A DNA stretch of 64,000 bases from Trichlorobacter thiogenes (GTDB lineage Bacteria > Desulfobacterota > Desulfuromonadia > Geobacterales > Pseudopelobacteraceae): NCBI RefSeq assembly GCF_900167465.1, contig NZ_FUWR01000009.1, positions 1-64,000 of the forward strand, written 5' to 3'. Of this stretch, positions 1 to 63,682 are shown in pieces. The notes under the pieces were generated by a model. It was not told the origin of the DNA. It made no database searches and saw only the letters and a program-made list of their open reading frames with translations. The first letter of the stretch is position 1, and the number at the start of each line of letters is the position of its first letter. The position numbers were made by a program, and so were the translations under genes.

Positions 1-389
1 TTGACCAAGGTCAGGCCGGCGACAACATCGGCGCCCTGCTTCGTGGTGTAAAGCGTGAAGACATCGAGCGTGGCCAGGTACTTGCCAAGCCCGGTAGCAT
101 CACCCCGCACACCAAGTTCAAGGCAGAAGCCTATATCCTCACCAAAGAAGAAGGTGGTCGTCACACCCCATTCTTTAACGGCTACCGTCCCCAGTTCTAC
201 TTCCGCACCACAGACGTAACCGGTGTTGCAGAACTGCCAGCAGGCACTGAAATGGTAATGCCTGGTGACAACGTAGCTATGACCGTAAACCTGATCACCC
301 CTATCGCAATGGACGAAGGCCTTCGCTTCGCCATCCGTGAAGGTGGTCGTACCGTAGGCGCCGGCGTCGTCAGCGCAATTATCGAGTAA
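1..389 (+). CDS. tuf: Elongation factor Tu, C-terminal fragment
   Basis: This is the 3' end of an EF-Tu gene; the 5' part lies outside the window. Reading starts in the third frame (first full codon at position 3) and gives about 128 residues of domains II and III, including the stretch [20 protein letters not shown] and the ending [11 protein letters not shown], both typical of EF-Tu. EF-Tu delivers aminoacyl-tRNA to the ribosome as a GTP complex. Only 18 bases separate its stop from rpsJ, so tuf is probably co-transcribed with the S10 operon as the last gene of a str operon. The GTPase domain cannot be inspected here. Confidence 0.97.
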
Positions 390-31069: not shown

Positions 31070-32074
31070 CTACGGCCCCACCACTACCTTATCCACAACC
31101 AGCGTACCGCTGCTGATGGTCAGGCTGCCGTTAATGGTACTGTAACCGGTCTGGCTGCTGAAAGTGCTGTCACTGTAGCCACCCTTCAGGGTCAGGGTCA
31201 GGGTATGGCTGTTCTGCAGGATAACGTTTTCTGCAAAACCAATAGCCGTGGCCCGGATGGTTGCATCCTGAACCGGTGCTGCCAGGGCGCTGTTAATGCT
31301 GTAATAGGCGGTGCTGTCACCATCAATCTTTACCGTGGCCGCGCCTGGGCTGAATGTGGCAGTTACCGCCTTGTTTGCGCTCATGGTGATGCTGCCGGGA
31401 TTGCTGATACTGACGTAATCACCGCTCCAACTGCTGAAGGTTGAGTTGGAACCGGTGGCGGTCAGGGTAACGGTATCGCTTAGGTTAAAGGTAACCGGCT
31501 GACAGACGCCGGGGGTGTTGCAGGTGTAGTTGGTGCCGCTGTCGTTATGGCTGGTAACTGAGCCGTTGCCGGAGATGGTGACGGTGAGGGTTGGCATAAT
31601 AACGCGGACGCCGTAGCTGTCGGCATTGGTTGCCGTGCCCTTGAGATGAAGCCACCCCAGCGCTTCGCTCCAGCCAAAGCCGTCAAGGGCGCCGGTTGTG
31701 CTATTGATTGTAACCCCACCGCCGCTGGGAGCAAAATTGATCCAACCGCTGGTTTCAGACCAAGCAAAACCGGATAGCGCATCGCCGATCCGGTTTACCC
31801 CCCAGTCGGCATTGCTTGTGTTGGCGTAGATAAAGCTGCCGCCGTCGGTGTGGCTCCCCAGCTTGATCCAGCCGATGCTTTCGCTCCAAGCAAAGCCTTC
31901 CAGGTGATCGACATAGAGTGTCACTCCACCGCTGCTAGGGGCAAAGTTGATCCATCCGCTGGTTTCGGACCATGCGTATTTTTCGGTGGAGCTGATGTTG
32001 CTGGCCAGGGCCGCAGTGACAAAGGAGAGGAGTGCTAGGCCAGCAATGATGCCGCTTGAAAAGATATGTCTCAT
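31070..32074 (-). CDS. Secreted protein with four WSE-GW repeats and shared C-terminal module
   Basis: The 334-residue protein has a signal peptide (about 1-24, ending ALASN). Four repeats follow with the core FAWSETSGWINFAPS (at about 34, 64, 103 and 133), then a bacterial-repeat domain with paired cysteines (YTCNTPGVCQPVTFNLSDTV) and SSWSGDYVSISNPGSI. The C-terminal 90 residues (from VKIDGDSTAYYS to VVDKVVVGP) are nearly the same as in three other proteins of this region. A TL dipeptide insertion (TLTLTLKGG against TLTLKGG) distinguishes this copy. The function is unknown; surface or extracellular location is inferred from the signal peptide and beta-rich composition. Confidence 0.85.
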   Translation of the reverse strand: MRHIFSSGIIAGLALLSFVTAALASNISSTEKYAWSETSGWINFAPSSGGVTLYVDHLEGFAWSESIGWIKLGSHTDGGSFIYANTSNADWGVNRIGDALSGFAWSETSGWINFAPSGGGVTINSTTGALDGFGWSEALGWLHLKGTATNADSYGVRVIMPTLTVTISGNGSVTSHNDSGTNYTCNTPGVCQPVTFNLSDTVTLTATGSNSTFSSWSGDYVSISNPGSITMSANKAVTATFSPGAATVKIDGDSTAYYSINSALAAPVQDATIRATAIGFAENVILQNSHTLTLTLKGGYSDSTFSSQTGYSTINGSLTISSGTLVVDKVVVGP

Positions 32075-32120
32075 GAGGGGGCTGCCTCTCTGTTAATGGA
32101 TATCCAAAGAGTCGGATGAT

Positions 32121-33365
32121 CTACTGTCTGTCACGTACAGGCCAGACGTAATTACTGTAGGTCTTAACGTAGGCATTTATGACGCCACTGCTTATGGCGA
32201 CGTTCCAAGAACCGCTGCTAGAGCTGGAGCTGGACGACCAGTATTGACTGGACTGGACGGACGTAAACGGACTGGCCGGCGGCCAGACGGGACCCAGACT
32301 AAGTAGCTCATTGACGTTCGGCAGACGCCATTGGCCGGTGGATGAGCCGTCAGTCAGGCCGCAGAGGCCACTGGACAGATTATTGCTCCAGGTCAAAGCA
32401 TTTGCCCACGTAAGTTTTCCACTACTATTACTGATGCCGCCAACGGTCTCAGTGCAGCTGGCGTTTTTCAGCCAGATCAATCCGCTATAGTTATCCGTGA
32501 CCGTGCCGTTGCTGTTATCTGTAAAACGCGAACTGTTGGATGGCACCCACGAAGGGACGGCGTAATTGCCAGTATTACCGGTTTTCGGCAGTATCACCGG
32601 AAGGCAGCCGTTCTGATACGCACCATCATCACCGGTTGCATAGCTGGTGCTCTGGCCAGTGGACGACACTTCCCTGCATTTACCGCTGATACCGAAAACA
32701 GAGGTACCGCTTCTGATGTTACCTGCAACCAGGTTGGCGTCCCCGGCCACTGTTCCGGAACCGTTGTGATAACCGGCGGCAATGGCTTGGCTTGTAGTGC
32801 CGGGGGTGATGCTGACTGCGCCGTTATTGGGCATGGTGCCGGTCAGGCCTGTCGAAACGGCAGTTGAAAAGGTGGCTCCGGAAAGCACGCTTTCGACAGT
32901 GGCCGTACCGGTTGCCTGGATGACCGAGGCAGTGGCTGTTTTACCTCCGAAATAATACCCGTCCGGTATCGTGAAAGTCAGCAGTCCGTTACCACCGGTA
33001 ACATTACCTTGCACCGGAATCGCACCCGTGTTTACCCCCCAGGTCCCGTCAGTTCTAAGCCCCCAAAACGTCTTGCCGGACAAGACATCACTTGCTGTAG
33101 CACCGTTGGTGTTGTCCGGCGCCGGGAGCTTTGCCTGAATCTCAGCTAGTGTCCTGCTGCTACCCACAGTAGGCCCTGCGGTCGGCTCGGTAAACTGGCT
33201 CGTATTGGGTGCCGGGATGGCTGCGCCGGTATCCAGCAGGTTGTAGATCTGGTTGATAGTCGGCATGTTGCTGCCAGCACTGCCGGGGGCGTCTAAATTT
33301 CCAGCAAAGCCTGATAACGGAAAGCTGGCCAGCAAAAGCGTGATAAGGCGGGTTGCGTATTTCAT
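32121..33365 (-). CDS. Secreted DUF1566 protein with phage-tail-like repeats
   Basis: From the ATG at 33365 (GAGGAC upstream) the product is 414 residues. It has a signal peptide (MKYATRLITLLLASFPLSGFAG) and a low-complexity N-terminal region. Segments such as GTMPNNGAVSITPGTTSQA and GYHNGSGTVAGDANLVAGNI resemble repeats found in phage tail and fibre proteins. At the C-terminus a DUF1566 (Lcl C-terminal) domain carries FTDNSNGTVTDNYSGLIWLK, WRLPNVNELLSL, YWSSSSSSSSGSW and VWPVRDRQ. DUF1566 domains are C-type-lectin-like and common in secreted proteins. Unlike its neighbours it lacks the shared C-terminal module. An ATG at 33389 in the same frame is less likely. Confidence 0.85.
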   Translation of the reverse strand: MKYATRLITLLLASFPLSGFAGNLDAPGSAGSNMPTINQIYNLLDTGAAIPAPNTSQFTEPTAGPTVGSSRTLAEIQAKLPAPDNTNGATASDVLSGKTFWGLRTDGTWGVNTGAIPVQGNVTGGNGLLTFTIPDGYYFGGKTATASVIQATGTATVESVLSGATFSTAVSTGLTGTMPNNGAVSITPGTTSQAIAAGYHNGSGTVAGDANLVAGNIRSGTSVFGISGKCREVSSTGQSTSYATGDDGAYQNGCLPVILPKTGNTGNYAVPSWVPSNSSRFTDNSNGTVTDNYSGLIWLKNASCTETVGGISNSSGKLTWANALTWSNNLSSGLCGLTDGSSTGQWRLPNVNELLSLGPVWPPASPFTSVQSSQYWSSSSSSSSGSWNVAISSGVINAYVKTYSNYVWPVRDRQ

Positions 33366-33454
33366 GTTTTTGTCCTCTGTTTGGTGCAATGTACGTTTTG
33401 TTTTCTATTTCCACCTTGAGTGTAAAGGTGGCCTTGGACGGTGCGAAACGTCCT

Positions 33455-34215
33455 CTACGGCCCCACCATTACCTTATCCACAACCAGCGTTCCGCTGCTG
33501 ATGGTCAGGCTGCCGTTAATGGTACTGTAACCGGTCTGGTCGGTGAAGGTGGCGTCACTGTAGCCACCTTTCAGAGTTACGGTGACGCTGCTTTGCAGGG
33601 TCACGTCTTCCGTGAAATTGGTAGCCGTGGCCCGGACGACCGCATCCTGCACCGGCGCGGCCAGCGCCGTATTAATGCTGTAGTACGGGGTGTTGTCACC
33701 ATCAATCTTTACCGTTGCAGCGCCTGGGCTGAATGTGGCAGTTACCGCCTTGTCTGCATTCATGGTGATGCTGCCGGGATTGCTGATGCTGACGTAATCC
33801 CCGCTCCAACTGCTGAAGCTGGAGTTTGAACCGGTGGCGGTCAGGGTAACGGTATCGCCACTGCCAAACGGCACAGCGCTACAGGTTGCGGTATTACAGG
33901 CATAGCCAAGTCCGCTGCCATTTGAACTGTTCACCGTACCGTTGCCGCTGATAGCAAGGGTCAGCCAGTAACCGTTAATATTCAGGGCACCGCTGATAAA
34001 AGAAATGTCATAGCCCAACTGGTCTGAAAACAGGCCGTCCGGTGTAATGGTGTAACTGCCAATTGCCGTAGCCCCCTGGGAGCTACCGGCATAGGTCAAA
34101 CTGCCTGCCACCCTGGTTGCATTATACCCGGCCGGTGCAAACAGCACCCCGTTGCCGCCGCTGTAGGGGGTAGCGTCATAGTTCTTGGCTACATTATTGG
34201 CCGTCACACTCATGG
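33455..34215 (-). repeat. Shared 3' cassette, copy B (MBG, bacterial repeat and C-terminal module)
   Basis: This stretch is highly similar at the DNA level to 36147-36910 and 41345-42105. It encodes the MBG-like domain, the bacterial-repeat domain and the final module. The last part (about 33455-33860) is also shared with 31070-31470. Similar DNA over matching codons and the same terminal CCGTAG context show recent duplication or gene conversion. Inner limits are approximate. Confidence 0.8.
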
Positions 34216-35791
34216 GGGTCAAAAAGCTGCGCAAGAGCGGCGTGGTCTGGCTGTCGTAGATACGCCAGGCCGCGGAGGAACCGCCCGTTGTGCTGATGTC
34301 CCAGCCGGCGAAGGTGGCCGCCTGCGTCAGTTCGGCGGAAGTCTTGCCGGTGCCGCCGTCGCTGGTCGCCTGGCCGGAAACCTGAGTGTCCCAGTAGCTG
34401 TTGGTGACGGTGGCATAGACGTTGAACTGATAGCCGACCAGGCCGCCGACATGGCTCTGGCCAACCACCGCACCAGCAGCGTAGCTGTTGGTAACCGAGG
34501 TGCCGGGGCTCAGGTAACCCACCAGCCCGCCCACGTTCGCATTCGTAGCAGAGACATTCCCGACCGTTCCTGTGGCGTAGCTGTCGGCAATCGAGGCGCC
34601 GTCGTATCCCGTCATGCCGACCAGCCCGCCCACCCCCTCCGCATAGCTGGGGTTGACCGATCCTGAGGCATAGCTGCCGGCAATGGCGCCGTTGTTCACC
34701 CCGACCAGCCCGCCGAAGCCTTGGCCCAGCGCCATGTTGAACTGGCCCACCACATCAAAGCTCGCCGAACTGTTGTAAATGGCGCCCTCGTTTTCACCCA
34801 CCAGGCCGCCGACGGAATTTGTACTGTGGATATCCGCCCCGTAGACATCGTAGGGGACGACATGACTGTTGAGGATGGTGCCGGCGTTGGCGCCCACCAG
34901 GCCGCCGACGAACTGGCCCGTTCCCCTGATCGACGCCCCATCCATCATGGCTACGACATTGCGAATGATGCCGCCGGTATCGTTGGCGCCCGCCAGGGAA
35001 CCGACGAAGTTCACGCCAAAGACATTGGAGTACATCCCATCCATACTGATCTGCACGTTCTCCAGGGTGCCGGTGTTGAAGCCGAACAGTCCCTGGAAAT
35101 CGGCGGCATTGACGACGTAAGGATTCCAGACCACGTGGCCCAGGCCGGTGAACGCGCCGGTGAACGGCGTGTATTGATCGGCACCCAGCGGCGTCCATAA
35201 TAAGCTGCCCAAATTGACATCGCCGCCGAGGGCGTAATGCCCGGCCAGGTTGCCGCTGATCGCCGTCAGTTGCGCCGGGGTCTGGATGACGATGTAGTCT
35301 TGGCCATTGATGGTGAGGAAGCCGGCGCCGGAGCGGTCGGGGAAATCCAGCCGCCCGGCGAAGCTCCGGCTGCCGGTGCCGTCGTGCCCCGGATTGAAAA
35401 CGAAATTTACCGCGCCGCCGGGGGTGAGCGTCAGGCTGGAACTGCCGGAGGCGGTCATGACGGCATTGACGTTGATGTCGTTGGTGGCGGTCAGAGTCAG
35501 TTTGTTGGCAGACCAGCTGATGTCGGTTGCCACGGTTATGCTGCTGCCCGCAGTGATGACCACCCCGCTGTTTGCCAGACGGTCTGTGATGTCACTTACT
35601 GCCACGCTGGAAACACCGCTGGCGCCCGGTGTCCAGACATCCGGTGAGGCGCCTGACCAGCTACCGTTGCTGGAGGCTGCCGTGCCGATGGTGACGGTGG
35701 CGGAATCAGCCCATGCCGGTTGCAGCGGTGCCAGCAGGCAGATGAACAGTACCAACAGCAGGATCGGTTTAAGGTGCGGTATGTTTTTCAT
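33455..35791 (-). CDS. GLUG-repeat secreted adhesin-like protein (7 repeats)
   Basis: The 778-residue product has a signal peptide (MKNIPHLKPILLLVLFICLL...AWA) and an N-terminal beta module starting DSATVTIGTAASSNGSWSGA. Seven GLUG-type repeats follow (cores such as VGGLVGANAGTILN and VGGLVGENEGAIYN), then a WRIYDSQTTPLLRSF cap, an MBG-like domain (KNYDATPYSGGNG...), a bacterial-repeat domain and the shared C-terminal module ending VVDKVMVGP. Such proteins are usually extracellular beta-helical adhesins. The start at 35791 is chosen because AAGGA lies just upstream and a signal peptide follows directly. No autotransporter barrel or sortase signal is seen. Confidence 0.86.
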   Translation of the reverse strand: MKNIPHLKPILLLVLFICLLAPLQPAWADSATVTIGTAASSNGSWSGASPDVWTPGASGVSSVAVSDITDRLANSGVVITAGSSITVATDISWSANKLTLTATNDINVNAVMTASGSSSLTLTPGGAVNFVFNPGHDGTGSRSFAGRLDFPDRSGAGFLTINGQDYIVIQTPAQLTAISGNLAGHYALGGDVNLGSLLWTPLGADQYTPFTGAFTGLGHVVWNPYVVNAADFQGLFGFNTGTLENVQISMDGMYSNVFGVNFVGSLAGANDTGGIIRNVVAMMDGASIRGTGQFVGGLVGANAGTILNSHVVPYDVYGADIHSTNSVGGLVGENEGAIYNSSASFDVVGQFNMALGQGFGGLVGVNNGAIAGSYASGSVNPSYAEGVGGLVGMTGYDGASIADSYATGTVGNVSATNANVGGLVGYLSPGTSVTNSYAAGAVVGQSHVGGLVGYQFNVYATVTNSYWDTQVSGQATSDGGTGKTSAELTQAATFAGWDISTTGGSSAAWRIYDSQTTPLLRSFLTPMSVTANNVAKNYDATPYSGGNGVLFAPAGYNATRVAGSLTYAGSSQGATAIGSYTITPDGLFSDQLGYDISFISGALNINGYWLTLAISGNGTVNSSNGSGLGYACNTATCSAVPFGSGDTVTLTATGSNSSFSSWSGDYVSISNPGSITMNADKAVTATFSPGAATVKIDGDNTPYYSINTALAAPVQDAVVRATATNFTEDVTLQSSVTVTLKGGYSDATFTDQTGYSTINGSLTISSGTLVVDKVMVGP

Positions 35792-36146
35792 GGTACGTTC
35801 CTTCATTTTTGAAAATGGCAGTTCACGAAACACAGAGCACCGGAGCAACAGAGAAATCAACCTGGAAAAGCAGTGAGCCGCCACAGAACGCAAAGATCAC
35901 AAAGAACTGCACGTAGCTGGATAGTGTGACCGTTAAACCTAAAAAAGCAGTTGTCCACGAAGTTCACGAAGAAACACCAAGAAAAACAGATTGTTTAGGC
36001 CAAGGCAGCAACAACCTTTTGGGTGAATCATGTGTTTGCTGTAACCTGTTGAATCTTCGTGAAACTTCGTGTCCTTCGTGGAGATGAACTGCCTTTCAGT
36101 TTTTTCTCTGCGGCCCTTGCGTTCTTTTGCGGCCAATTATTCTCCC
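35792..36146. repeat. Intergenic region with duplicated flank and palindromic repeat (35947-36092)
   Basis: No gene is seen here. Positions 35789-35940 match 44147-44299, the region upstream of the 934-residue paralogue, so the flank was duplicated with the gene. Positions 35947-36092 form an inverted repeat whose arms (35947-35971 and 36055-36092) are built from CACGAAG units: TCCACGAAGTTCACGAAG and its reverse complement with small differences. Positions 36091-36146 match 41288-41344 almost exactly, downstream of the 934-residue gene. The region carries the leader of the 778-residue gene on the minus strand. Confidence 0.7.
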
Positions 36147-36910
36147 CTACGGCCCCACCACTACCTTATCCACAACCAGTGTTCCGCTGCTGATGGTCAG
36201 GCTGCCATTAATGGTACTGTAACCGGTCTGGCTGCTGAAATTACTGTCACTGTAGCCGCCCTTCAGGGTCAGGGTATGGCTGTTCTGCATGGTTACATTT
36301 TCCGTAAAACCGGTAGCCGTGGCCTTGATGGTTGCATCCTGTGTTGGTGCTGCCAGGGCGCTGTTGATGCTGTAGTACGGGGTGTTGTCACCATCAATCT
36401 TTACCGTTGCAGCGCCTGCGCTGAATGTGGCAGTCACCGCCTTGTTTGCGCTCATGGTGATGCTGCCGGGATTGCTGATGCTGACGTAATCCCCGCTCCA
36501 ACTGCTGAAGCTGGAGTTGGAGCCGGTGGCGGTCAGGGTAACGGTGTCGCCACTGCCAAACGGCACAGCGCTACAGGTTGCGGTATTACAGGCATAGCCA
36601 AGTCCGCTGCCGTTTGAACTGTTCACCGTACCGCTGCCGCTGATACCAAGGGTCAGCCAGTAGCCGTTAATGTTCAGGACACCGCTGATAAAAGAAATGT
36701 CATAGCCCAACTGGTCTGAAAACAGGCCGTCCGGCGTAATGGTGTAACTGCCAATTGCCGTAGCCCCCTGGGAGCTACCGGCATAGGTCAAACTGCCTGC
36801 CACCCTGTCTGCATTATACCCTGCTGGCGCAAACAACACCCCATTGCCGCCGCTATAGGCAGTAGCGTCATAGTTTTTGGCTGCATTGTTGGCTGTTACG
36901 CTCATGGGGG
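36147..36910 (-). repeat. Shared 3' cassette, copy C
   Basis: This matches 33455-34215 and 41345-42105 with only scattered differences and encodes the MBG-like, bacterial-repeat and terminal modules. It also continues past the stop codon: the 3' flank 36091-36146 matches the flank of copy D, so copies C and D share a longer duplication. Inner limit is approximate. Confidence 0.8.
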
Positions 36911-39900
36911 TCAGGAAGGAGCGCAGCAGCGGATAGGTTTTATCTTCATAGATGCGCCAGATTGCAGGAGAACCGCCTGTCGCGCTGATACTCCAGCCAG
37001 CGTCGCTGAAACTGCTGGCGGTCATCATCTGGGCGGTGGTGAGGCCGGTGCTGTTGGTCAGGGTGATGTCACCGTAGTTATTGCCAATGGCGTAGGACTG
37101 GCCGGTGGTTGTTGTGTTCCAGAAGCTGTTGCTGATGGTCGTGCCGAGCCAGGTCTTCCCCACCAGACCGCCAGAATAAGTGGCGCTTACCGCGCCAACG
37201 GCGTAGCTGTTGCTGATGCTGCCCAAGTCGTCAAACCCCACCAGACCGCCGGCGACGCCGCTGCTATAGTGGGCAGAAACAGTGCCAGTGGCGTAGCTGT
37301 TGTCGATTTTCCCGTAAATATACAGATCTTTACCGGTGTTAGAGTCGTAGTAGCCGGCTTGCCCAAGCGCCATCAGACCGCCCACATAGCGGTATCCACT
37401 GACATTGCCGGTGGCGTAGCTGTTGATAATGGCCAAATTGTCTACCCAGCCAACCAGACCGCCGGCATCGCCGTTGCCATAATATTCGCAACCAGGACAG
37501 TGGGAAGCAGTGGCAGTAACATTGCCGGTGGCATAGCTGTTGCTGACAATATGTCTTTGACTTATCGAGTCATCGAGATACATCCAATAGGTTCCCCCGA
37601 GCAAACCGCCCACGCCGCTCCCGCCGGTAACATTGCCGGTGGCGTAACTATTGGTGATGTTAGTGTTATCTCCGTAGAGTTGACCGACCAGTCCGCCCAC
37701 ATAGGTGGACGAGGCGCTGGCGCTATCGACCGTGATGCTGGATTTGACATTGCCGATGGCATGACTGTCGCTGATGCTGATATCGGTTCCCTTAAACATG
37801 CCGACCAGCCCGCCAATGTATTGCTTGTAGCCAATTACATCTCCGGTGACGTAGCTGTTGCTTACATTGCCAGTGCTATACCCGATCAGCCCCCCCACGT
37901 AATCGGCGCTACCGGCCGTGACCTTGCCGGTGGCGTAGAGGTTATTGACATTGGCGGTGGTATAGCCGATCAGGCCGCCCACGTAGGTACTGCCGGTGGA
38001 GGTGACATCACCGATGTGGTAGCTGTTGGTAACGGCGCCGGTGATGGAGCCTACCAGCCCGCCGGAATAGCTGCCGCCGGGCACGGCTCCTTCAGCGTGG
38101 CTGTTGCTGATGCTGCCGGTGAGGTAGCCTGCCAGCCCGCCGGTATAGTTGCTGCCGCCGCCGCCGCTGAGGGTGCCAATGTAGTAGCTGTCGCTGATGC
38201 TCAGGCCATCGCCCTTACCCACCAGACCGCCGGTATAACCGCCGCCGCTGCTGATGGTGGCGGTGCTGTAGCTGTTGCTGATGCTGCCGGTGCCGGTGCC
38301 GGACTGCCACCCGACTAACCCGCCGACGCTCCCCAATCGACCGGTAATGGCGCCGGTGCTGTAGCTGTTGCTGATGCTTACTGTGGCGCTGTTTAAAGAG
38401 CTGTGGCCGATCAGTCCGCCGATAGCTTGGGCGCCAAGGAGGTTGCCGCTGAAGTGGCTGTCGCTGATGCTGCTGATATTGTACCCTTCGCCCACCAGCC
38501 CGCCGATGGAATTTCCACCGTCGTTAGTATGGGTATGGAAGAGTTGAATGTTGCCTTCCACAGGGCTGTTGCTGATGGCGCCATTATCCATGCGGCCGGC
38601 CAACCCGCCAAGATAGCTTGTCCCCACATCGGTGCCCGAGGTTGTAAAGCTGTTCATGGTGATGGTGGTGTGGCTGTCGCTGATGTTGCCCACCTGATAG
38701 CCTGCCAGGCCGCCGAAGTAGTTGACGCTCATATTGGTGTAGCTGTCGGCACTCAGGGTGATATCGGCGTAGCTGTTGCTGATGGCGCCGGTGCTGTAGC
38801 CTGCCAGCCCGCCGAAGTAGTAGTAGTTAAAGCCACCGCTGGCCGCCAAGCTGCCGGTGAAGTGGCTATTGTCAATGCTGCCGCCGTTGTTGTAGCCCAG
38901 CAGGCCGCCGATATACCAGCTGTTGTTGACGCCGCTGCCGGTGACGGTGCCGCTGGCATAGACGTTGGAGAGCGGGGCGTAGCTGTAGGCGGCCAAGCCG
39001 CCGGTGTAATAGTTGCCTCCGGTGACGTTGAGGTTGGTCAGCCCCAGGTTGCTGAAGCTGGGACCGCTGCCAACATAGCCGAACAGGCCGACAAAATTCT
39101 GGTTGTTGCGGTTGATGGTCAGGCCGTCGATGACGTGGTTCTGGCCGTAGAAATTGCCGGTGAAGGCCACGGTGTTGGCGGGGTCGGGGGCACCGGAACC
39201 GTTGAGACTGCTGGTGCCGATCGGCTTGAAGCCCTTACCGCTGTTCCAGGTGGCGGTGCCGGAGGCACTGATATCATTGGCCAGTTGGTAGCTCTTGGTT
39301 AGCATGTCGGCGGAGGATCCGATCCCCTGCAGGCCGTAGATGTCGGTAATCTGGTAGGGATTGTTGCTGCTGCCGTCACCGCCTGATGCCCGGATAAAGC
39401 TGCCACCGGAGATGCGGAAGTCGCTGACGCTGAAGTCGGGCAGGCTACCGATCTGGCTCCAGCTGCCGGATTGCAGATCAAAAATAGCGCTGCCGCTGCC
39501 GTTGATGGCGGCGGTGGCGTTGATGGTGCCGCTGGTGTTGATGGCCAGAGTGCCGCTGGTCCAGGTGATCGGGCTGCTGATAATGATATCACCTGCCCCA
39601 CTGCCAGGGGTGCTGATGGTGCGGTTGCTATAGCTGATGTCATAGCCCTGCTGGCTGGAGTAGAGACTGCTTATGTTGACACTGGCGGTATAGGAACCGG
39701 CGTTGCTACTGGAAATGGTCAGGGGGCTGGCGCTGCCCAGCAGCTTAGCTGCATCGTAGCTGGTGGCAGTTACGTCGGCAATGTTGGTCATGGCCGTACC
39801 GCTGCCGTCAAAGGCCGGGGTTACGCTGAGCGTGGGCATGAAGGAACGTAAGAGCGGGTAGGTATAGCCGTTGTAGATACGCCAGACCGAGGTGGAGCCG

Positions 39901-41213
39901 CCGGTACTGCTGATCTCTGTTCCCCAGGCACTGAAGCTGCTGGCATTCTGCATCTGGGCACTGGTCAGGCCGGTGACGCCGGTGGGGGTGGCTGAACCGC
40001 CTGCCCCGTAGGCTTGTCCTGTGGTGGTGCTATTCCAGAAGTCATTGCTGTAGGTACCACTGGCATTGTTTCCCACCAGTCCGCCAACATTGGTTACACC
40101 GGTTACACTGCCAGTGGCATAGGCGTTGCTGATGCTGCCACTGTTATACCCAACCAGGCCGCCGGTGTCGCTTGTGGTGCCGGTTACACTCCCCAGTGCA
40201 TAGGCGTAATTGATACTGCCGGAATTCTTGCCCACCAGGCCACCGGTGTAGTCGTTTGTGCCGCTGGCGCTGCCGGTGGCGTAGGCATTGCTGATGCTGC
40301 CACCCTCGTTAAACCCCACCAGACCACCAACGCCGTATACCCCGGTTATATTGGCAGTGGCGTAGGCGTTGCTGATGCTGCCGGTGTTATAGCCTGCCAG
40401 GCCGCCGACTCTGTTTTTGCCGGTTATGCTGCCTCCCACAACCCCTACGTTGCTGATACTGCCGGTGTTGGAGCCAAATAAACTGAGGTTGGTAGCGCCA
40501 CTACGGTTGATGTACAGGTTGCTGATGGTGTGGCCGAGGCCGTTGAAGCTGCCGCTGAAGCTGGTGCTATCGTTGCCGATGGGAGCAAAGCCGTAATAGC
40601 CGCCGCTGCCGTTGCTGTTCCAGGTAGTGGTGTCACTGGCATCAATGTCTGCCCCCAGTACGTAGTTGCCGGAGAGGGCACCGCTTATCCCCTGCAGATC
40701 AGTGCCGGTGGTGCTGCCCGCGCTGCCCAGGCTGGTGATGACGGTCCAGGAGGTTTCAGCGTTGCTGCCCTGTTTGGTGAAGAAGTTGGGACCGGCGGAG
40801 AGGCTGACCTTGGCGCCGTTGTTCAGGCTGTAGCTGCTGCCGTAGTAGAGCTTGAGCGCACCGCTGGTAGCGCTGATGGCGGCAGTGATGCTGATATCGG
40901 TTCCGGCATTAAGGGTCAGAGTATTGCTACTGCTCCAGCTGATGGGGGTTGCCACGGTTATGCTGCTGCCTGAACCGATGATTACCCCGCTGTTTGCCAG
41001 ACGGTCTGCGATCTCGCTGACTGCCACGGTGGAAACACCGCTGGCGCCAGGTGTCCAGACATCCGGTGTGGCACCTGACCAGCTACCGTTGCTGGATGCC
41101 GCCGTGCCGATGGTGACGGTGGCGGAATCAGCCCATGCCGCTTGCAGCGGTGCCAGTAGGCAGATAGACAGTAACAACAGGAAGATGGGGTTAAGCTGAA
41201 GTTTGATTTTCAT
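36147..41213 (-). CDS. Giant GLUG-repeat secreted adhesin-like protein (25 repeats)
   Basis: The 1688-residue product has a signal peptide (MKIKLQLNPIFLLLLSICLL...AWA), then the DSATVTIGTAASSNGS module. A first block of five GLUG repeats follows, with a WRIYNGYTYPLLRSF cap. After a second beta region with the entry motif DGSSNNPYQITDIYGLQG comes a longer GLUG block; I count 25 repeats in total. Near the C-terminus lie the WRIYEDKTYPLLRSF cap, an MBG-like domain, a bacterial-repeat domain and the shared module ending VVDKVVVGP. Composition is low in charge and rich in G, S, T and N, as in beta-helical adhesins. The start at 41213 follows AAAGGGA. No outer-membrane anchor is seen, so the export route is open. 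Confidence 0.87.
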   Translation of the reverse strand: MKIKLQLNPIFLLLLSICLLAPLQAAWADSATVTIGTAASSNGSWSGATPDVWTPGASGVSTVAVSEIADRLANSGVIIGSGSSITVATPISWSSSNTLTLNAGTDISITAAISATSGALKLYYGSSYSLNNGAKVSLSAGPNFFTKQGSNAETSWTVITSLGSAGSTTGTDLQGISGALSGNYVLGADIDASDTTTWNSNGSGGYYGFAPIGNDSTSFSGSFNGLGHTISNLYINRSGATNLSLFGSNTGSISNVGVVGGSITGKNRVGGLAGYNTGSISNAYATANITGVYGVGGLVGFNEGGSISNAYATGSASGTNDYTGGLVGKNSGSINYAYALGSVTGTTSDTGGLVGYNSGSISNAYATGSVTGVTNVGGLVGNNASGTYSNDFWNSTTTGQAYGAGGSATPTGVTGLTSAQMQNASSFSAWGTEISSTGGSTSVWRIYNGYTYPLLRSFMPTLSVTPAFDGSGTAMTNIADVTATSYDAAKLLGSASPLTISSSNAGSYTASVNISSLYSSQQGYDISYSNRTISTPGSGAGDIIISSPITWTSGTLAINTSGTINATAAINGSGSAIFDLQSGSWSQIGSLPDFSVSDFRISGGSFIRASGGDGSSNNPYQITDIYGLQGIGSSADMLTKSYQLANDISASGTATWNSGKGFKPIGTSSLNGSGAPDPANTVAFTGNFYGQNHVIDGLTINRNNQNFVGLFGYVGSGPSFSNLGLTNLNVTGGNYYTGGLAAYSYAPLSNVYASGTVTGSGVNNSWYIGGLLGYNNGGSIDNSHFTGSLAASGGFNYYYFGGLAGYSTGAISNSYADITLSADSYTNMSVNYFGGLAGYQVGNISDSHTTITMNSFTTSGTDVGTSYLGGLAGRMDNGAISNSPVEGNIQLFHTHTNDGGNSIGGLVGEGYNISSISDSHFSGNLLGAQAIGGLIGHSSLNSATVSISNSYSTGAITGRLGSVGGLVGWQSGTGTGSISNSYSTATISSGGGYTGGLVGKGDGLSISDSYYIGTLSGGGGSNYTGGLAGYLTGSISNSHAEGAVPGGSYSGGLVGSITGAVTNSYHIGDVTSTGSTYVGGLIGYTTANVNNLYATGKVTAGSADYVGGLIGYSTGNVSNSYVTGDVIGYKQYIGGLVGMFKGTDISISDSHAIGNVKSSITVDSASASSTYVGGLVGQLYGDNTNITNSYATGNVTGGSGVGGLLGGTYWMYLDDSISQRHIVSNSYATGNVTATASHCPGCEYYGNGDAGGLVGWVDNLAIINSYATGNVSGYRYVGGLMALGQAGYYDSNTGKDLYIYGKIDNSYATGTVSAHYSSGVAGGLVGFDDLGSISNSYAVGAVSATYSGGLVGKTWLGTTISNSFWNTTTTGQSYAIGNNYGDITLTNSTGLTTAQMMTASSFSDAGWSISATGGSPAIWRIYEDKTYPLLRSFLTPMSVTANNAAKNYDATAYSGGNGVLFAPAGYNADRVAGSLTYAGSSQGATAIGSYTITPDGLFSDQLGYDISFISGVLNINGYWLTLGISGSGTVNSSNGSGLGYACNTATCSAVPFGSGDTVTLTATGSNSSFSSWSGDYVSISNPGSITMSANKAVTATFSAGAATVKIDGDNTPYYSINSALAAPTQDATIKATATGFTENVTMQNSHTLTLKGGYSDSNFSSQTGYSTINGSLTISSGTLVVDKVVVGP

Positions 41214-41344
41214 TGTGCGTTCCCTTTGTTCAAAAAGCGGCAGTTGCTCTTGCTCACACAAAGCTTTCGCGACTTGTGCGTGAAACAGCCTTTCAGGTTT
41301 TTTCTCTGCGGCCCTTGCGTTCTTTTGCGGCCAATTATTCTCCC

Positions 41345-42105
41345 CTACGGCCCCACCACCACCTTATCCACAACCAGTGTGCCGCTGCTGATGGTCAGGC
41401 TGCCGTTAATGGTGCTGTAACCGGTCTGGCTGCTGAAATTGCTGTCACTGTAGCCCCCTTTCAGGGTCAGGGTATGGCTGTTCTGTAGGATAACGTTCTC
41501 TGCAAAACCAATAGCCGTGGCCTTGATGATTGCATCCTGTGTTGGTGCTGCCAGGGCGCTGTTGATGCTGTAATACGAGGTACTATCACCATCAATCTTT
41601 ACCGTTGCAGCGCCTGCGCTGAATGTGGCGGTAATCGCCTTGCTTGCATTCATGGTGATGCTACCGGGATTGCTGATGCTGACGTAATCCCCGCTCCAAC
41701 TGCTGAAGCTTGAGTTTGAACCGGTGGCGGTCAGGGTAACGGTATCATTACTGCCAAACGGCACAGCGCTACAGGTTGCGGTATTACAGGCATAGCCAAG
41801 TCCGCTGCCGTTTGAACTGTTCACCGAACCGCTACCGCTGATGCCAAGGGTCAGCCAGTAGCCGTTAATGTTCAGGGCGCCGCTGATAAAAGAGATGTCA
41901 TAGCCCAACTGGTCTGAAAACAGGCCGTCCGGTGTAATGGTGTAACTGCCAATTGCCGTAGCCCCCTGGGAGCTACCTGAATAGGACAGGGTACCCGCCA
42001 CCCTGTCTGCATTATACCCGGCTGGCGCATACTGCACGCCATTACCGCCATTGTAGGCAGTACCGTCATAGTTTTTGGCTGCATTGTTGGCTGTTACGCT
42101 CATTG
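41345..42105 (-). repeat. Shared 3' cassette, copy D
   Basis: This is the third full copy of the MBG, bacterial-repeat and terminal-module cassette. Positions just downstream of the stop (41288-41344) match 36091-36146. Differences from the other copies are mostly single substitutions such as TSYYS for TPYYS. Inner limit is approximate. Confidence 0.8.
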
Positions 42106-44149
42106 CGGTCAGGAAAGAGCGCAGCAATGGGTAGGTTTTGCCTTCGTAGATACGCCAAATTGCAGGAGAACCGCCTGTCGCGCTGATACTCCAGCCCGCG
42201 TCGCTGAAACTGCTGGCGGTTTTCAGTTCGCTGGTGGTTTTGCCGACGACGTTGGTGAGCGTGCCCGCGTTGCCGCCCACAGCGCTGTCCTGGCCGGGGG
42301 GGTCGCTGTTGAAGAAACTGTTGCTGATGCTGGAATCGGCGGTGTTGATGCCGGCCAGACCACCGACGCTGGTGTAGCTGTTGCCGGTCACCTTACCGAT
42401 AGCGTAGCTGTTGCTGATCGTGGCCGAATTCTCGTTGGCGCCGACCAGACCGCCCACGAAGGTGTTGCTGCTCACGCTGCCGGTGGCGTAACTGTTGCTG
42501 ATGCTGCCGTGGGTGTTTTCGCCCACCAGACCGCCCGCGACGTCGAGGGTGGCCGTCACCGTGCCGGTGGCGTAGCTGGTGTTGATGCTCCCATGGTTCC
42601 ACCCCACCAGACCGCCTGCGAACTCGTCGCCGCTCACGCTGCCGATGGCGTAGCTGGCACTGATGCTGCCGCTGTTGTTGTACCCCACCAGCCCACCGAG
42701 CATGTTACTGCCGCTGCCGCCGGTCACGCTGCCGGTGGCATAGCTGACGCTGATGCTGCCGCCGTCGTTGTGCCCCACCAGTCCGCCCACTCCCTCCGTT
42801 CCGGTCACGTTGCCGGTGGCATAGGCGTTGCTGATCACCGTATTGGCGTCGCTCGTGCCGATCAGCCCGCCCACGGAGTTGACGCCAGAGACCGTGCCGG
42901 TGGCATAGACATCAATGATCCGCCCCGCATCGCTGGCTGTGCCGATGACATTGTGGCCTACCAGTCCACCCACGTACTTGTTACCCGTGACATTGCCGCT
43001 GGCGTGGCTGCTGTTGATCGATCCGGCGTTCTCACCGACCAGGCCGCCCACCTCGTCGTAGGTGCCGGTCACGGTCACGCTGGCCGAGGCATTGCTGAGG
43101 ACGCCCCAGTTGACGCCCACCAGGCCGCCCACATCGCTGAGGCCGCTGACGCTGCCGCTGGCCGTGACATTGCTGATCATGCCGCCGTCGCCATTTCCAC
43201 CTGTCAGCAGGCCAACTTGATCTACGGTGCCAATGACGTTGCCTTGCACCGAAACATTGCTGATGATGCCGCCCTCCATGTTGCACCCCACCAGCGCCCC
43301 CACGCACACGTCGCCGCCGGTGACGGCGGCATTGGTTAGAACCAGATTGCTGATGGTGCCGTAGTTAATGCCGAAGAAACCGACCAGTATCTCGCTGTCC
43401 CGGTTGATAGTAAGGCCGTTAATGGTGTGGCTCTGGCCGCCAAGGCTGCCGGTGAACGTGTGGCTGCTGTCACCGATCGGCTTGAACCCCTTACCGCTGT
43501 TCCAGGTGGCGGTGCCGGATGCACTGATGTCGTTGGCCAGTTGGTAGCTGTTCACCAGCATGCCACTGGAACCGATCCCCTGCAGGCCGTAGATGTCGGT
43601 AATCTGGTAGGGGTTGCTGCTGCTGCCGTCGCCGCCAAGGGCGCGGATAAAGCTGCCGCCGCTGATGCGGAAGTCGCTGGCGCTGAAGCCGGGCAGGCTG
43701 CCGATCTGGCTCCAGCTGCCGCTGGAAAGGGTAAAAATATTGACGCTGATCTGATCTGTGGCACTGATGGTGGTACCGGCAGCAAGGGTAAGCGCACCGC
43801 TGGAGCTGCTGATGGCGGCAGTGATGGCGATGTCGGTTCCGGCGTTAAGGGTCAGGGAATTGCTGCTGCTCCAGCTGATGGGGGTTGCCACGGTTATGCT
43901 GCTGCCTGAACCGATGATTACCCCGCTGTTTGCCAGACGGTCTGTGATCTCGCTTACTGCCACGGTGGAAACACCGCTGGCGCCTGGTGTCCAGACATCT
44001 GGTGTGGCGCCAGACCAGCTACCGTTGCTGGAGGCTGCCGTGCTGATGGTGACGGTGGCGGAATCAGCCCATGCAGGCTGAAGAGGTGCCAGCAGGCAGA
44101 TAACCAGCAACAACAGCAGGATCGGTTTTAGGTGCGGTATTTTTTTCAT
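41345..44149 (-). CDS. GLUG-repeat secreted adhesin-like protein (12 repeats)
   Basis: The 934-residue protein has a signal peptide (MKKIPHLKPILLLLLVICLL...AWA) almost identical to that of the 778-residue paralogue, and the DSATVTIS module. The entry motif DGSSSNPYQITDIYGLQG leads into 12 GLUG-type repeats (for example VGGLVGVNWGVLSN, VGGLVGHNDGGSISV). The WRIYEGKTYPLLRSF cap, an MBG-like domain, a bacterial-repeat domain and the terminal module ending VVDKVVVGP complete it. AAAGGAACGTACC precedes the ATG. It is the most upstream of the four paralogues and lies next to the two-component genes, separated from them by a terminator. Confidence 0.87.
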   Translation of the reverse strand: MKKIPHLKPILLLLLVICLLAPLQPAWADSATVTISTAASSNGSWSGATPDVWTPGASGVSTVAVSEITDRLANSGVIIGSGSSITVATPISWSSSNSLTLNAGTDIAITAAISSSSGALTLAAGTTISATDQISVNIFTLSSGSWSQIGSLPGFSASDFRISGGSFIRALGGDGSSSNPYQITDIYGLQGIGSSGMLVNSYQLANDISASGTATWNSGKGFKPIGDSSHTFTGSLGGQSHTINGLTINRDSEILVGFFGINYGTISNLVLTNAAVTGGDVCVGALVGCNMEGGIISNVSVQGNVIGTVDQVGLLTGGNGDGGMISNVTASGSVSGLSDVGGLVGVNWGVLSNASASVTVTGTYDEVGGLVGENAGSINSSHASGNVTGNKYVGGLVGHNVIGTASDAGRIIDVYATGTVSGVNSVGGLIGTSDANTVISNAYATGNVTGTEGVGGLVGHNDGGSISVSYATGSVTGGSGSNMLGGLVGYNNSGSISASYAIGSVSGDEFAGGLVGWNHGSINTSYATGTVTATLDVAGGLVGENTHGSISNSYATGSVSSNTFVGGLVGANENSATISNSYAIGKVTGNSYTSVGGLAGINTADSSISNSFFNSDPPGQDSAVGGNAGTLTNVVGKTTSELKTASSFSDAGWSISATGGSPAIWRIYEGKTYPLLRSFLTAMSVTANNAAKNYDGTAYNGGNGVQYAPAGYNADRVAGTLSYSGSSQGATAIGSYTITPDGLFSDQLGYDISFISGALNINGYWLTLGISGSGSVNSSNGSGLGYACNTATCSAVPFGSNDTVTLTATGSNSSFSSWSGDYVSISNPGSITMNASKAITATFSAGAATVKIDGDSTSYYSINSALAAPTQDAIIKATAIGFAENVILQNSHTLTLKGGYSDSNFSSQTGYSTINGSLTISSGTLVVDKVVVGP

Positions 44150-44514: not shown

Positions 44515-45159
44515 TTACTTTCCCTTTGTAAACCGGATCGCCATGAGCCGCAGCTCTTTAGTCCGTGACAGCTTCAGCTTGTCCAGAATCCGGGCGTAGT
44601 AGGTTTCTACGGTGCTGACGGAGATGGCGAAGTGCTGCGCCAGATCAGAGGTTGAGTAACCTTCCCCCATCTTGCAGAACAGCTTCTGTTCCCGCTCCGA
44701 CAACCGTGCCATAACCGGACGACTGCCTTCAGGCTCAGTTCCCTGCCGGAGCGCCTCGGTGGCAACAGGGCTCAGGTAACATTCCCCGGCCAGAACAGAG
44801 CTGATCGTCTTCAGCAGGGTTGCCGCCATTTCCCGCTTGGTGACATAGCCATTGGCTCCGGCTGCCAGAGCCGCCTCAATCCGTTCCCGGTCGTCATGCA
44901 TTGAGTACACAAGCACTTTAACACCGTTTTCACGCAGATTAGTGATCAGGTCGATGCCGTTCTCCGCACCCAGTGACAGATCCACCAGCACCACATCGGC
45001 AGCCGCAGAAGTGAGTCGGGATAAGGCATCTGCACGGCAATCAGCTTCACCGCAGACCAGCAGCCCTTTACTGCCTAACAGCAGCGACAGTCCTTCCCGC
45101 ACTGCCGGGTGATCATCCACCAGAAAGACCCGTACCCCCTGAACTGTTGTGTCAGGCAT
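44515..45159 (-). CDS. NarL/LuxR-family response regulator
   Basis: From the ATG at 45159 the product is 214 residues. A receiver domain (VFLVDDHPAVREGL at 11-24, phosphoacceptor D60 in VVLVDLSLG) is followed by a LuxR-type helix-turn-helix at about 150-205 (LSEREQKLFCKMGEGYSTSD, AQHFAISVSTVETYYARILD). The start overlaps the end of the kinase gene by eight bases, so both are coupled; GAGAGG precedes it. It probably controls genes in response to the 7TMR-DISM kinase; the neighbouring adhesin genes are plausible but unproven targets. Confidence 0.93.
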   Translation of the reverse strand: MPDTTVQGVRVFLVDDHPAVREGLSLLLGSKGLLVCGEADCRADALSRLTSAAADVVLVDLSLGAENGIDLITNLRENGVKVLVYSMHDDRERIEAALAAGANGYVTKREMAATLLKTISSVLAGECYLSPVATEALRQGTEPEGSRPVMARLSEREQKLFCKMGEGYSTSDLAQHFAISVSTVETYYARILDKLKLSRTKELRLMAIRFTKGK

Positions 45160-47143
45160 CTGTTGCCTCTCTATCCCAAACAACGGCGCAGGGGGCGGTG
45201 CAGACAACGGACGTTCCTCTACCGGTCAGGTCAGTTATCTCAAAGCGTGCGTTGATCTGGGTTGCGCGGTATTCCATCATACCGATTCCAAGGCCGCCGC
45301 CGGTCCCCTTTGTCGTGGTGATGCCGCAGCCATTATCGCTCACTTCAAGCTGGATTCCCGTATCCGGTGTGCAGTGCAACGCAATAGTGATCAGGGTGGC
45401 TCCAGAGTGTTTGACCGCATTTGTCAGCGCCTCACGGGCGATCTGCTGAATATGCAGCATGCTGACCGCAGAGCAGGCCGGGCAGTTCTGCTTCATCTCC
45501 AGCTGGATCGGGATGGCACTCTGGCTGGAGGCCTGCCGGACCAGCTGTTCCAGATCAATGACCCCTTCTCCGCCATCCCGGTCTGAGGTCCAGAGTCGAC
45601 GCGAAAGGGCGTAGGCATGATCAACAGAATCCTGCAGCAAGGTGCCGAGCGGCCGGGCTTCCGGCTCTAACCCCGCTTCGGTTAGCCGGTCTTCCAGGGC
45701 GGCAAAGCGGAGTCGGGCTCCGGTCAGCTGCTGACAGAGCCCATCGTGCAGTTCGTGGCTGATCCGACGGCGTTCCTCCCGGCTGACCTGCTGAATCTCC
45801 TGCTCCAGCCGCTCATGTTTTTCCATCTGTTCCTGTAATGCCCCATGGGCGGCGGTCCGTTCAGATATCTGTAACTGCAGATCAGCCACCAGATCACCTA
45901 TTTTACTACTGAGCAGCTTGAAGCGTTCTCCCTGGGCAAAGGCGATCAGTATGCCGTCCAGCAGCGGGGTAATCAGCAATGCGGTTTCATAGAAGGGTGA
46001 GTAGGGTATCAGATTGAAGTTCAGCAGCATGAGCAGCAGTACCGCTATCTCATGCAGTATCCGTGCTGCCAGCAGATATTTGGCAGGGGGATAGCCGTTG
46101 CGGACCGCTTCAGCTGAGGCAGCCAGCAGGAACAGTACGATCAGCATGGCGTCAAGCATCAGTGCGGTTTTAAAAGGAGCCGCAGGAACGAAAAAGATCA
46201 ATGGCGGCAGGATAAGGTTTGCCCAGATCCAGATACGGAGCAGGCGGTCCATAACCGGCGCATTCTTGGGGGTTATTAGGAATTCTCTGATAAAAAAGGT
46301 GGCGCCCAGTAGCGGTAAAAAGCAGATCAGCGTGGCCAGATAGTCGTGTGTGCGGGGATGGCTGGGGAAAACCTGACTAAAGAGATAACCGGCAATGGTC
46401 AGATGGTAAGCGGCGGTTGCCAGGATATAGAAGGCATAGTAGACAAAACTCTTCTCCCTGATGAACAGGTACAGCGACATGCTGATAACCGCAATGGTCA
46501 GTGCAAAGCCGGTAAATCCTGCGTAGATCGAGTTCTGTACGCTCTCTCTCAGGTTCATCGCGTCGCCGGTACAGACCGTCAGGGGAAACTGGCTGCGGCC
46601 GCTGATCTGGGCCCGCAGGTACCAGGTGGCCGATCCCTCGCGGGGGTGGAGGGAGAACAGGATGCTGCGTTTCTGGATGGTGCGGCTGGCCATGGGGCGC
46701 ATGTCGCCGGAATGCTGTGTTAGGACAGTGCCGTCGGGGTGCACAAGGTACAGGTCGGCGTAATCCATAAGCGGCTGATCAAGCAGTAAGAGCCATTTAT
46801 CTTGACTGCGTGTGCCAAAGTCAATGTTGAAGCGGAACCAGTAGACGGCCGTGCTGATGCCGAAATTGGGACTGTCGGCAGGCACCGGTTTGAAGCGGCT
46901 GGCATAGGCGGGAGAACTGATATCGCTAATGGTAAGGCGGTGATCAGGGTCAGCCACCATCTCCAGCGTTGTTCTGCCCAGCGGGTAGCTGTCGCTAGTG
47001 CCGATAAGAAGGGGATCGGCGGCAAGGGACGGGGTGGTGAAGAGCAGCAGTGAGAGGATGGAGCCCGTGATACAGGCGGCAACCGTCTGATAGATGCCGA
47101 TTTGGCAGAGTATGCGGAGATGTGCGCTTACACCGAAGATCAT
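45152..47143 (-). CDS. 7TMR-DISM sensor histidine kinase, NarX/DegS type
   Basis: The 663-residue protein has a signal-anchor region (about 18-45), an extracytoplasmic 7TMR-DISMED2 domain (about 46-190, with GISTAVYWFRFNIDF and WYLRAQISGRSQFPLTV), and seven hydrophobic segments at about 200-390. A coiled-coil follows, then a HisKA_3 domain with RRRISHELHDGLCQQLTG and a HATPase domain with REALTNAVKHSGA and VSDNGCGI. Such kinases pair with NarL-type regulators, here the overlapping downstream gene. DISMED2 domains often resemble carbohydrate-binding folds, so an extracellular ligand is likely. Confidence 0.93.
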   Translation of the reverse strand: MIFGVSAHLRILCQIGIYQTVAACITGSILSLLLFTTPSLAADPLLIGTSDSYPLGRTTLEMVADPDHRLTISDISSPAYASRFKPVPADSPNFGISTAVYWFRFNIDFGTRSQDKWLLLLDQPLMDYADLYLVHPDGTVLTQHSGDMRPMASRTIQKRSILFSLHPREGSATWYLRAQISGRSQFPLTVCTGDAMNLRESVQNSIYAGFTGFALTIAVISMSLYLFIREKSFVYYAFYILATAAYHLTIAGYLFSQVFPSHPRTHDYLATLICFLPLLGATFFIREFLITPKNAPVMDRLLRIWIWANLILPPLIFFVPAAPFKTALMLDAMLIVLFLLAASAEAVRNGYPPAKYLLAARILHEIAVLLLMLLNFNLIPYSPFYETALLITPLLDGILIAFAQGERFKLLSSKIGDLVADLQLQISERTAAHGALQEQMEKHERLEQEIQQVSREERRRISHELHDGLCQQLTGARLRFAALEDRLTEAGLEPEARPLGTLLQDSVDHAYALSRRLWTSDRDGGEGVIDLEQLVRQASSQSAIPIQLEMKQNCPACSAVSMLHIQQIAREALTNAVKHSGATLITIALHCTPDTGIQLEVSDNGCGITTTKGTGGGLGIGMMEYRATQINARFEITDLTGRGTSVVCTAPCAVVWDREATDA

Positions 47144-47284: not shown

Positions 47285-47398
47285 ACCGTTGTTCACCCGA
47301 TCCATAATCAATTTTCCCGCCTTGTTGGTCAATGTTCCGCTGATGGTGCTGTAGCCACCCTTCAGAGACAGAGTGCGTTCATGGCTTTGCAGCAAACA
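47285..47398 (-). pseudogene. Broken remnant of the shared C-terminal module
   Basis: In a frame different from the neighbouring gene, this minus-strand stretch reads LLQSHERTLSLKGGYSTISG and continues TLTNKAGKLIMDRVNNG. It lines up with the end of the shared module (LQNSHTLTLKGGYS...STINGSLTISSGTLVVDKVVVGP), but an inner part of about ten residues is deleted and no start codon or upstream domain is present. The 3' end of the orphan secreted gene overlaps it by about 20 bases. It shows that a fifth copy of the module once existed here. Confidence 0.7.
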
Positions 47399-60555: not shown

Positions 60556-60864
60556 ATGGCGGAACAAACGTACAACTGGTCAGCGATAGCTAAAAATCCC
60601 AAGTTTATCGAACTGCACCACAAGAAAACAGCCTTCCTTTTCGGTTGGTGGATCTTCTCATCCATCTACTACTTCCTGCTTCCTATCGGAGCAGCCTATG
60701 CACCGGGTCTGTTCAAGATTCAGATCCTGGGCAGGATCAATTTTGGTTACCTGTTTGCGTTGTCGCAGTTTTTTGTGTCCTGGGGCCTGGCAATGTATTA
60801 TGCCCATGTTGCCAACAAAGACTTTGACCGTTTGACCAAAGAACTGGTCAACGAATTACATTAG
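60556..60864 (+). CDS. DUF485 membrane protein, copy 1
   Basis: The 102-residue protein has two hydrophobic segments (about 27-47 and 60-82: FLFGWWIFSSIYYFLLPIGA and LFALSQFFVSWGLAMYYAHV). It matches DUF485/YjcH proteins, which are encoded upstream of acetate symporter genes, as in E. coli acs-yjcH-actP. AAAGGAG precedes the ATG. The second copy at 63374 differs at only two residues, and their first 171 or so bases are identical. Confidence 0.93.
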   Translation: MAEQTYNWSAIAKNPKFIELHHKKTAFLFGWWIFSSIYYFLLPIGAAYAPGLFKIQILGRINFGYLFALSQFFVSWGLAMYYAHVANKDFDRLTKELVNELH

Positions 60865-63373: not shown

Positions 63374-63682
63374 ATGGCGGAACAAACGTACAACTGGTCA
63401 GCGATAGCTAAAAATCCCAAGTTTATCGAACTGCACCACAAGAAAACAGCCTTCCTTTTCGGTTGGTGGATCTTCTCATCCATCTACTACTTCCTGCTTC
63501 CTATCGGAGCAGCCTATGCACCGGGTCTGTTCAAGATTCAGATTCTGGGGCGGATCAATTTTGGTTACATCTTCGCGCTGTCGCAGTTTTTTGTGTCCTG
63601 GGGTCTGGCAATGTATTATGCCCATGTTGCCAACAAGGACTTTGACCGTTTGACCAGAGAACTGGTCAACGAACTTCATTAG
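63374..63682 (+). CDS. DUF485 membrane protein, copy 2
   Basis: The 102-residue product differs from copy 1 only in GYIFALS (for GYLFALS) and LTRELVNELH (for LTKELVNELH). The first 170 or so bases of both genes are identical, including silent sites, and later parts differ at synonymous sites, a pattern expected from gene conversion or a recent duplication that has begun to diverge. The Shine-Dalgarno region AAAGGAGTAACA is also shared. Confidence 0.93.
   Translation: MAEQTYNWSAIAKNPKFIELHHKKTAFLFGWWIFSSIYYFLLPIGAAYAPGLFKIQILGRINFGYIFALSQFFVSWGLAMYYAHVANKDFDRLTRELVNELH

Follow-up and report, generated by a model that had tools for sequence, protein, structure and literature searches.

Why do four neighbouring proteins of different build end in the same sequence? 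The question is raised by a stretch of 64,000 nucleotides from Trichlorobacter thiogenes (the window), in which four neighbouring open reading frames (ORFs) close with one C-terminal module, which we will call the tail. An earlier note on this DNA had described the tail as an exchangeable unit of exported proteins that is spread by recombination. The ORF list and an alignment bear out its starting point: all four ORFs exist, lie on the minus strand and have the same ending (see the table). We find that the tail is a real and widespread C-terminal domain family, which we have found described nowhere. Our preferred reading, which we believe about as strongly as we doubt it, is that the tail is a lineage-specific, folded C-terminal sorting domain of the Geobacterales, most likely served by the Pul/Oxp type II secretion system.

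The genome that contains the window (3.57 Mb in 42 contigs; the window lies on contig C26) encodes many more tails than these four. A single-sequence search gave 33 matches at E ≤ 1, and with profile A3 and a limit of E ≤ 0.001 the count was again 33; these tails fall into just 14 clusters. With this profile, we found tails in 23 of the 76 genomes of the family, with a maximum of 65 in one genome. The profile also hit 48 of 112 genomes from the order Geobacterales (completeness of at least 90%), with 1-65 copies in each, and 25 genomes in a sample of 394 from the whole phylum, so the match is not confined to the four window proteins. Within the family, the copy number is nearly bimodal (0-3 or 8-65 per genome). 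As the earlier note had supposed, the module belongs to no named family: there was no Pfam match over the cut-off, no NCBIfam model covers the module in a scan of 79 tails, and we found no description of such a tail in the literature on Geobacter.

The tail is nearly always the very end of the protein. In the same genome, on the correct strand, the match ends at most 2 residues from the stop in 28 of the 30 copies that we read, and at most 20 residues from it in the remaining two. Among the 141 distinct copies with an in-frame stop from all fetched loci, 115 end at zero residues from the profile end and 9 at one (124/141 within one residue of the stop), while 4 continue for at least 60 residues; this sample favours high-scoring matches and may thereby favour C-terminal ones. 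The last strand is conserved as well, with the terminal signature [VI]-[DE]-x-[LIV]-[VI]-[IV]-[KRQ]-COOH. The final residue is K, R or Q in 102 of 124 tails, as compared to 28% of other ORFs (p ~ 4e-36, ignoring relatedness; because copies within one genome are related, this value overstates the evidence). Three copies have one extra coil, and their new end is once more a similar strand (VVVK, VTVLP and VTITQ).

All 75 of the non-redundant full-length carriers have a single tail. By a simple rule (a home-made predictor), 62 of them have a signal peptide. Of the 13 that fail the rule, 3 are cut by contig edges, 9 have a signal peptide on inspection (using earlier or alternative starts), and 1 has none. 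Thus the signal peptide that the earlier note expected in front is present nearly throughout. The regions before the tail are unrelated to each other: they include NHL and other beta-propellers, TIG, fn3, Lcl_C, laminin-G, GLUG, RHS and RCC1 repeats, and the carriers span enzymes, beta-propellers and fibre-like repeats. A divergent InlB B-repeat (PF18998) often precedes the tail (27 of 52 carriers match at E ≤ 1e-4); the window proteins do not match PF18998 themselves, but they can be aligned with carriers that do. NCBIfam labels on carriers include choice-of-anchor D, J, Q and Z, M6 proteases, a PEP-CTERM NHL protein, a T9SS-dependent M6-like protein (T9SS is the type IX secretion system) and a myxosortase-dependent M36 peptidase. 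Since these ectodomains wear different sorting tags in other lineages, the tail would take the tag's place here. On sequence grounds, these observations support the tail as a portable C-terminal unit of exported proteins, much as the earlier note had it. Neither outcome that the note had named as refuting occurred: the profile matches far more than the four proteins, and hits that are internal or have no signal peptide are the exception.

The tail is predicted to be a compact, autonomous domain of about 78 residues, with a cap helix followed by beta coils. AlphaFold2 run on 79 sequences gave a mean predicted local distance difference test score (pLDDT) of 92 and a predicted template modelling score (pTM) of 0.83, with a short helix and then beta strands up to the C-terminus. 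In a model of the InlB-like domain plus the tail, both parts are confident (pLDDT of 92) and the pTM is 0.69; this lower value is as for a flexible link between the two domains. A Foldseek search with the predicted tail against PDB and BFVD found nothing significant. In profile comparisons, the tail weakly resembles pectinesterase N-terminal caps and NosD/beta-helix models, and we read it as a probable short beta-helix stub. Right-handed beta-helices of the pectate-lyase type share with it a cap pattern (YxTLxxAYxAA..GxxI....F.EdLtln...tLkGG) and coil repeats, but the tail stops after a few coils. Outside the order, the weakest matches (L150-L154) fall on the first coils of longer proteins that resemble beta-helices, a hint at the origin of the module.

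Could the four window copies be nothing more than homogenised tandem paralogues, with the tail as a by-product of recombination and no role of its own? Their DNA is indeed a mosaic. The other three copies are 76-82% identical to the copy of the 334-aa protein over about 185 columns and 78-94% identical over the last 80 or so. In codon-aligned DNA, identity between the 334-aa protein and the others is 41-61% until roughly column 60, then 92-93% in columns 60-80 and 88-98% in columns 80-100, and this sharp change falls inside the InlB-like domain. Between the copies of the 812- and 1704-aa proteins, identity is 92-98% until roughly column 120, drops to 73-74% for 40 codons, and is 85-94% thereafter. 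The likeness at the DNA level that the earlier note reported extends, as it said, to the bases by the stop codon (GTGGGGCCGTAG and a nearby GGA in all four copies), and between the copies at 36147 and 41345 it runs some tens of bases past the stop. Its length of about 90 residues describes the shared ending and not the limit of the shared block, which also takes in the InlB-B-like domain; similarly, its lengths of 778 and 1688 aa for two of the GLUG proteins correspond to later ATG starts than the 812 and 1704 aa of the ORF list. We read the mosaic profile, with its sharp steps, as recombination or gene conversion by which the tail was probably exchanged, which agrees with the earlier note. 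The three GLUG genes also share a stretch further upstream and their N-termini (in DNA), as homogenised paralogues might. However, families whose ectodomains are unrelated still share the tail at about 30-45% identity, nearly always as the terminus, and its distribution across the order largely refutes the idea of homogenised paralogues. We consider a mere by-product very improbable.

We compared the tail to known sorting systems. The T9SS C-terminal domain of Bacteroidota is a folded domain of about 80 residues, found on many signal-peptide-bearing proteins with unrelated ectodomains. The tail is likewise a folded C-terminal domain on many exported and otherwise unrelated proteins, but it is predicted to be a helix plus beta coil, and it is from a different phylum. 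We rejected identity with the T9SS domain, as no model for it is among the NCBIfam matches listed for the 79 tails. A search for SprA_N had no match in the genome and none in the control genomes either, so that search does not exclude a T9SS. The MYXO-CTERM, GlyGly-CTERM and PEP-CTERM tags have dozens of carriers per genome and ectodomain families in common with the tail. Each of these tags combines a short motif with a transmembrane helix and basic residues, and the first two tags are transmembrane and cleaved; in contrast, the tail is a folded domain, and a 19-residue hydropathy window reaches 1.6 or more in only 1 of 122 tails. With neither the transmembrane helix and basic cluster nor support from the NCBIfam scan, we rejected these identities. 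The tail also has no invariant cysteine (36 of 144 copies contain any). The GCX_COOH 3-coathanger stack (NF045639) is, going by its name, a small C-terminal stack like the tail, and we rejected it because its best score is 15.5 bits against a cut-off of 26; of two sub-threshold matches in the genome, one is inside a tail (14 bits against 26).

The clue to a machine comes from gene order. Eight tail genes of the same genome lie within 45 kb, inside the region of a type II operon that encodes GspF, GspE, a lipoprotein secretin, pseudopilins, and PilM/N/O- and GspC-like proteins. Finding 8 of 33 tails within 45 kb is improbable by chance, with the figure inflated by tandem duplication. Three more genomes (G061, G073 and G069) have tail genes scattered among those of the type II operon, for a total of four, all Trichlorobacter. 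In the tail-rich Trichlorobacter genomes, this operon has a second, divergent copy of the secretin. Given its gene content, our identification is that the operon encodes a Pul/Oxp system, for which we know of no described substrate tag. Unlike the Geobacter Pul/Oxp locus, the operon here also holds tail genes and the second secretin. In Geobacter, the Pul system is needed for secretion of OmpB (PMC3543383), and where that paper refers to Mehta 2006, the wording is "atypical type II". Type II secretion brings MYXO-CTERM and GlyGly-CTERM proteins to the surface (PMC11980579), which offers a precedent, by analogy, for tagged proteins that use this route. In another genome (G128), a tail gene lies about 13 kb from the type II operon; because genes of the trigger-factor, clp and lon type (by eye) intervene, we consider this to be chance.

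The earlier note had asked if a conserved membrane gene co-occurs with the module. Nearly all genomes with tails have the secretin, among them all 13 of the family genomes with at least 8 tails, but most of the tail-free genomes share it. Across the order, it was found in 102 of 112 genomes. Nine genomes without it have no tails; the tenth (G046) encodes two tails, and the only secretin in it is a broken one at the edge of a contig. Fisher's exact test on the co-occurrence gives p = 0.005 (or 0.026 with G046 counted against it), ignoring relatedness. The family search also covered incomplete genomes; one of these, G018 (78% complete), encodes three tails and gave no strong match to the secretin. 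Because the secretin is near-universal in the order, it cannot explain the tail-free genomes, and we rejected it as the partner that discriminates. Given these mixed counts, the two exceptional genomes and the uncorrected relatedness, the type II link is suggestive only.

If the tail is a sorting domain, then its N-terminal signal peptide would direct a carrier to Sec for export, and the carrier would fold in the periplasm. The folded tail would be recognised via its last strand, a free edge that ends in a basic or amide residue (K/R/Q). The carrier would then cross the outer membrane via the Pul/Oxp system or be retained on the surface. Three elements of this proposal are inferred: that a sorting machine recognises the tail, which machine this is, and where the carriers end up. 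Several observations weigh against this proposal. Many genomes with the secretin have few or no tails, and the type II operons that we looked at in other genera are free of tail genes; the secretin is therefore no dedicated partner. Relatedness and small genomes both confound the co-occurrence test. We found no processing enzyme for the tail. The window copies end in GP instead of K, R or Q. Also, the position at the C-terminus, whose constancy the earlier note had wanted checked, has at least two exceptions within the order, both in exported proteins. One (L166 gene 8) has a signal peptide, an InlB-like domain and a tail, and then 638 residues with what looks to us like a CotH-like part; the other clearly internal copy is in L173 gene 7. 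In more distant families, 17-30 or about 200-295 residues follow the module.

The stronger claim that the tail is the substrate-recognition domain of the Pul/Oxp system, and hence a transplantable type II signal, seems unlikely to us; as far as we know, type II systems are generally held to have no such signal. We rank as the chief rival to a sorting domain a structural cap or surface-binding stub: a truncated beta-helix (the N-terminal cap and first coils) with no sorting machine, which would stabilise the end of extended secreted proteins or bind a ligand. The weak likeness to pectinesterase caps and NosD/beta-helix models, the distant matches that are first coils of larger proteins, the internal copies, and the coil added in three copies would all fit. 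But such a stub should occur in multiple copies, at internal positions and with drifting ends, and we see one tail per protein, an exact C-terminus and a conserved last residue, on enzymes and beta-propellers as well as on fibre-like repeats. We view this alternative as doubtful, yet worth taking seriously. Or, the tail could be a signal for another route, with an outer-membrane exporter or an anchoring enzyme in the manner of the T9SS domain, and the type II linkage would be incidental. A dedicated machine would suit the near-bimodal copy number, the failure of the secretin to separate tail-rich from tail-free genomes, and the ectodomain relatives that NCBIfam names as T9SS- or myxosortase-dependent. 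On the other hand, no non-tail gene family recurs beside the tails across genera except for cytochromes, collar-like proteins and regulators, and the search for SprA was empty (as were its controls). We think another route quite unlikely.

Some of these neighbours are shown in the table. In three genomes from three genera, a carrier with NHL repeats, an InlB-like domain and a tail is encoded between a porin-like protein and multihaem c-type cytochromes, an arrangement that resembles an electron-conduit cluster. Triplets of collar-like genes (similar to microcystin-dependent protein, by eye) adjoin tails in three genera, with signal peptides in two. A pair of genes for a sensor histidine kinase and a LuxR-type response regulator adjoins tail genes at two places in the genome and also in G059, and may regulate them. 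Within the window, an Lcl_C (DUF1566) protein without a tail is encoded between two tail genes; Lcl_C domains are present in tail proteins elsewhere. Two near-identical proteins of 102 aa, each before a long transporter-like gene, are a recent tandem duplication.

Table. Locations of tails, their carriers and nearby genes. Plain numbers are window positions.
Feature	Location	Strand	Basis or remark
Tail of 334-aa WSE-GW protein	31073..31342	-	ends ...VVDKVVVGP*; 99% to query; stop directly after
Tail of GLUG protein 33455-35893	33458..33721	-	ends ...VVDKVMVGP*; alignment and genome search
Tail of GLUG protein 36147-41261	36150..36413	-	alignment and genome search
Tail of GLUG protein 41345-44149	41348..41611	-	alignment and genome search
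Exported WSE-GW repeat protein, 334 aa, tail carrier	31070..32074	-	ORF list
Exported GLUG protein, 778-812 aa by start chosen, tail carrier	33455..35893	-	ORF list; PF07581
Exported GLUG protein, 1688-1704 aa by start, tail carrier	36147..41261	-	PF07581, 16 stretches
Exported GLUG protein, 934 aa, tail carrier	41345..44149	-	PF07581, 12 stretches
Divergent InlB-B-like domain before tail of 334-aa protein	31325..31591	-	predicted beta domain, model residues 14-102; mosaic breakpoint inside
InlB-B-like domain before tail	33722..33970	-	limits approximate; alignment, mosaicism
InlB-B-like domain before tail	36414..36662	-	limits approximate; alignment, mosaicism
InlB-B-like domain before tail	41612..41860	-	limits approximate; alignment, mosaicism
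Decayed tail remnant (ERTLSLKGGYSTISGTLTNKAGKLIMDRVN)	47294..47380	-	18 bits; short ORF upstream of histidine kinase gene
Lcl_C (DUF1566) protein	32121-33389	-	
Histidine kinase/regulator pair	44515-47143	-	
Histidine kinase/regulator pairs	L045 genes 4-6; L175 genes 7-9		
102-aa proteins	60556-60864; 63374-63682	+	
Eight tail genes in type II operon region	C26:67-112 kb		
Second secretin copies	L159:5949-8306; L195:4288-6675; L192:6537-8909		
Collar-like triplets	L041:9730-11584; L169:470-2062; L175:13838-15743		
Porin/cytochrome clusters with tail carrier	L167:4886-16113; L178:863-15294; L180:2425-14303		

The profile of the tail gives annotators a way to name a domain for which Pfam and NCBIfam have no model. 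The bacteria that carry it belong to a group known for extracellular electron transfer, and if the tail is a sorting domain, many of their surface or secreted proteins would be named at once. How type II systems recognise their substrates is a long-standing question. If the type II system reads the tail, it would be a defined, transplantable signal for that secretion system.

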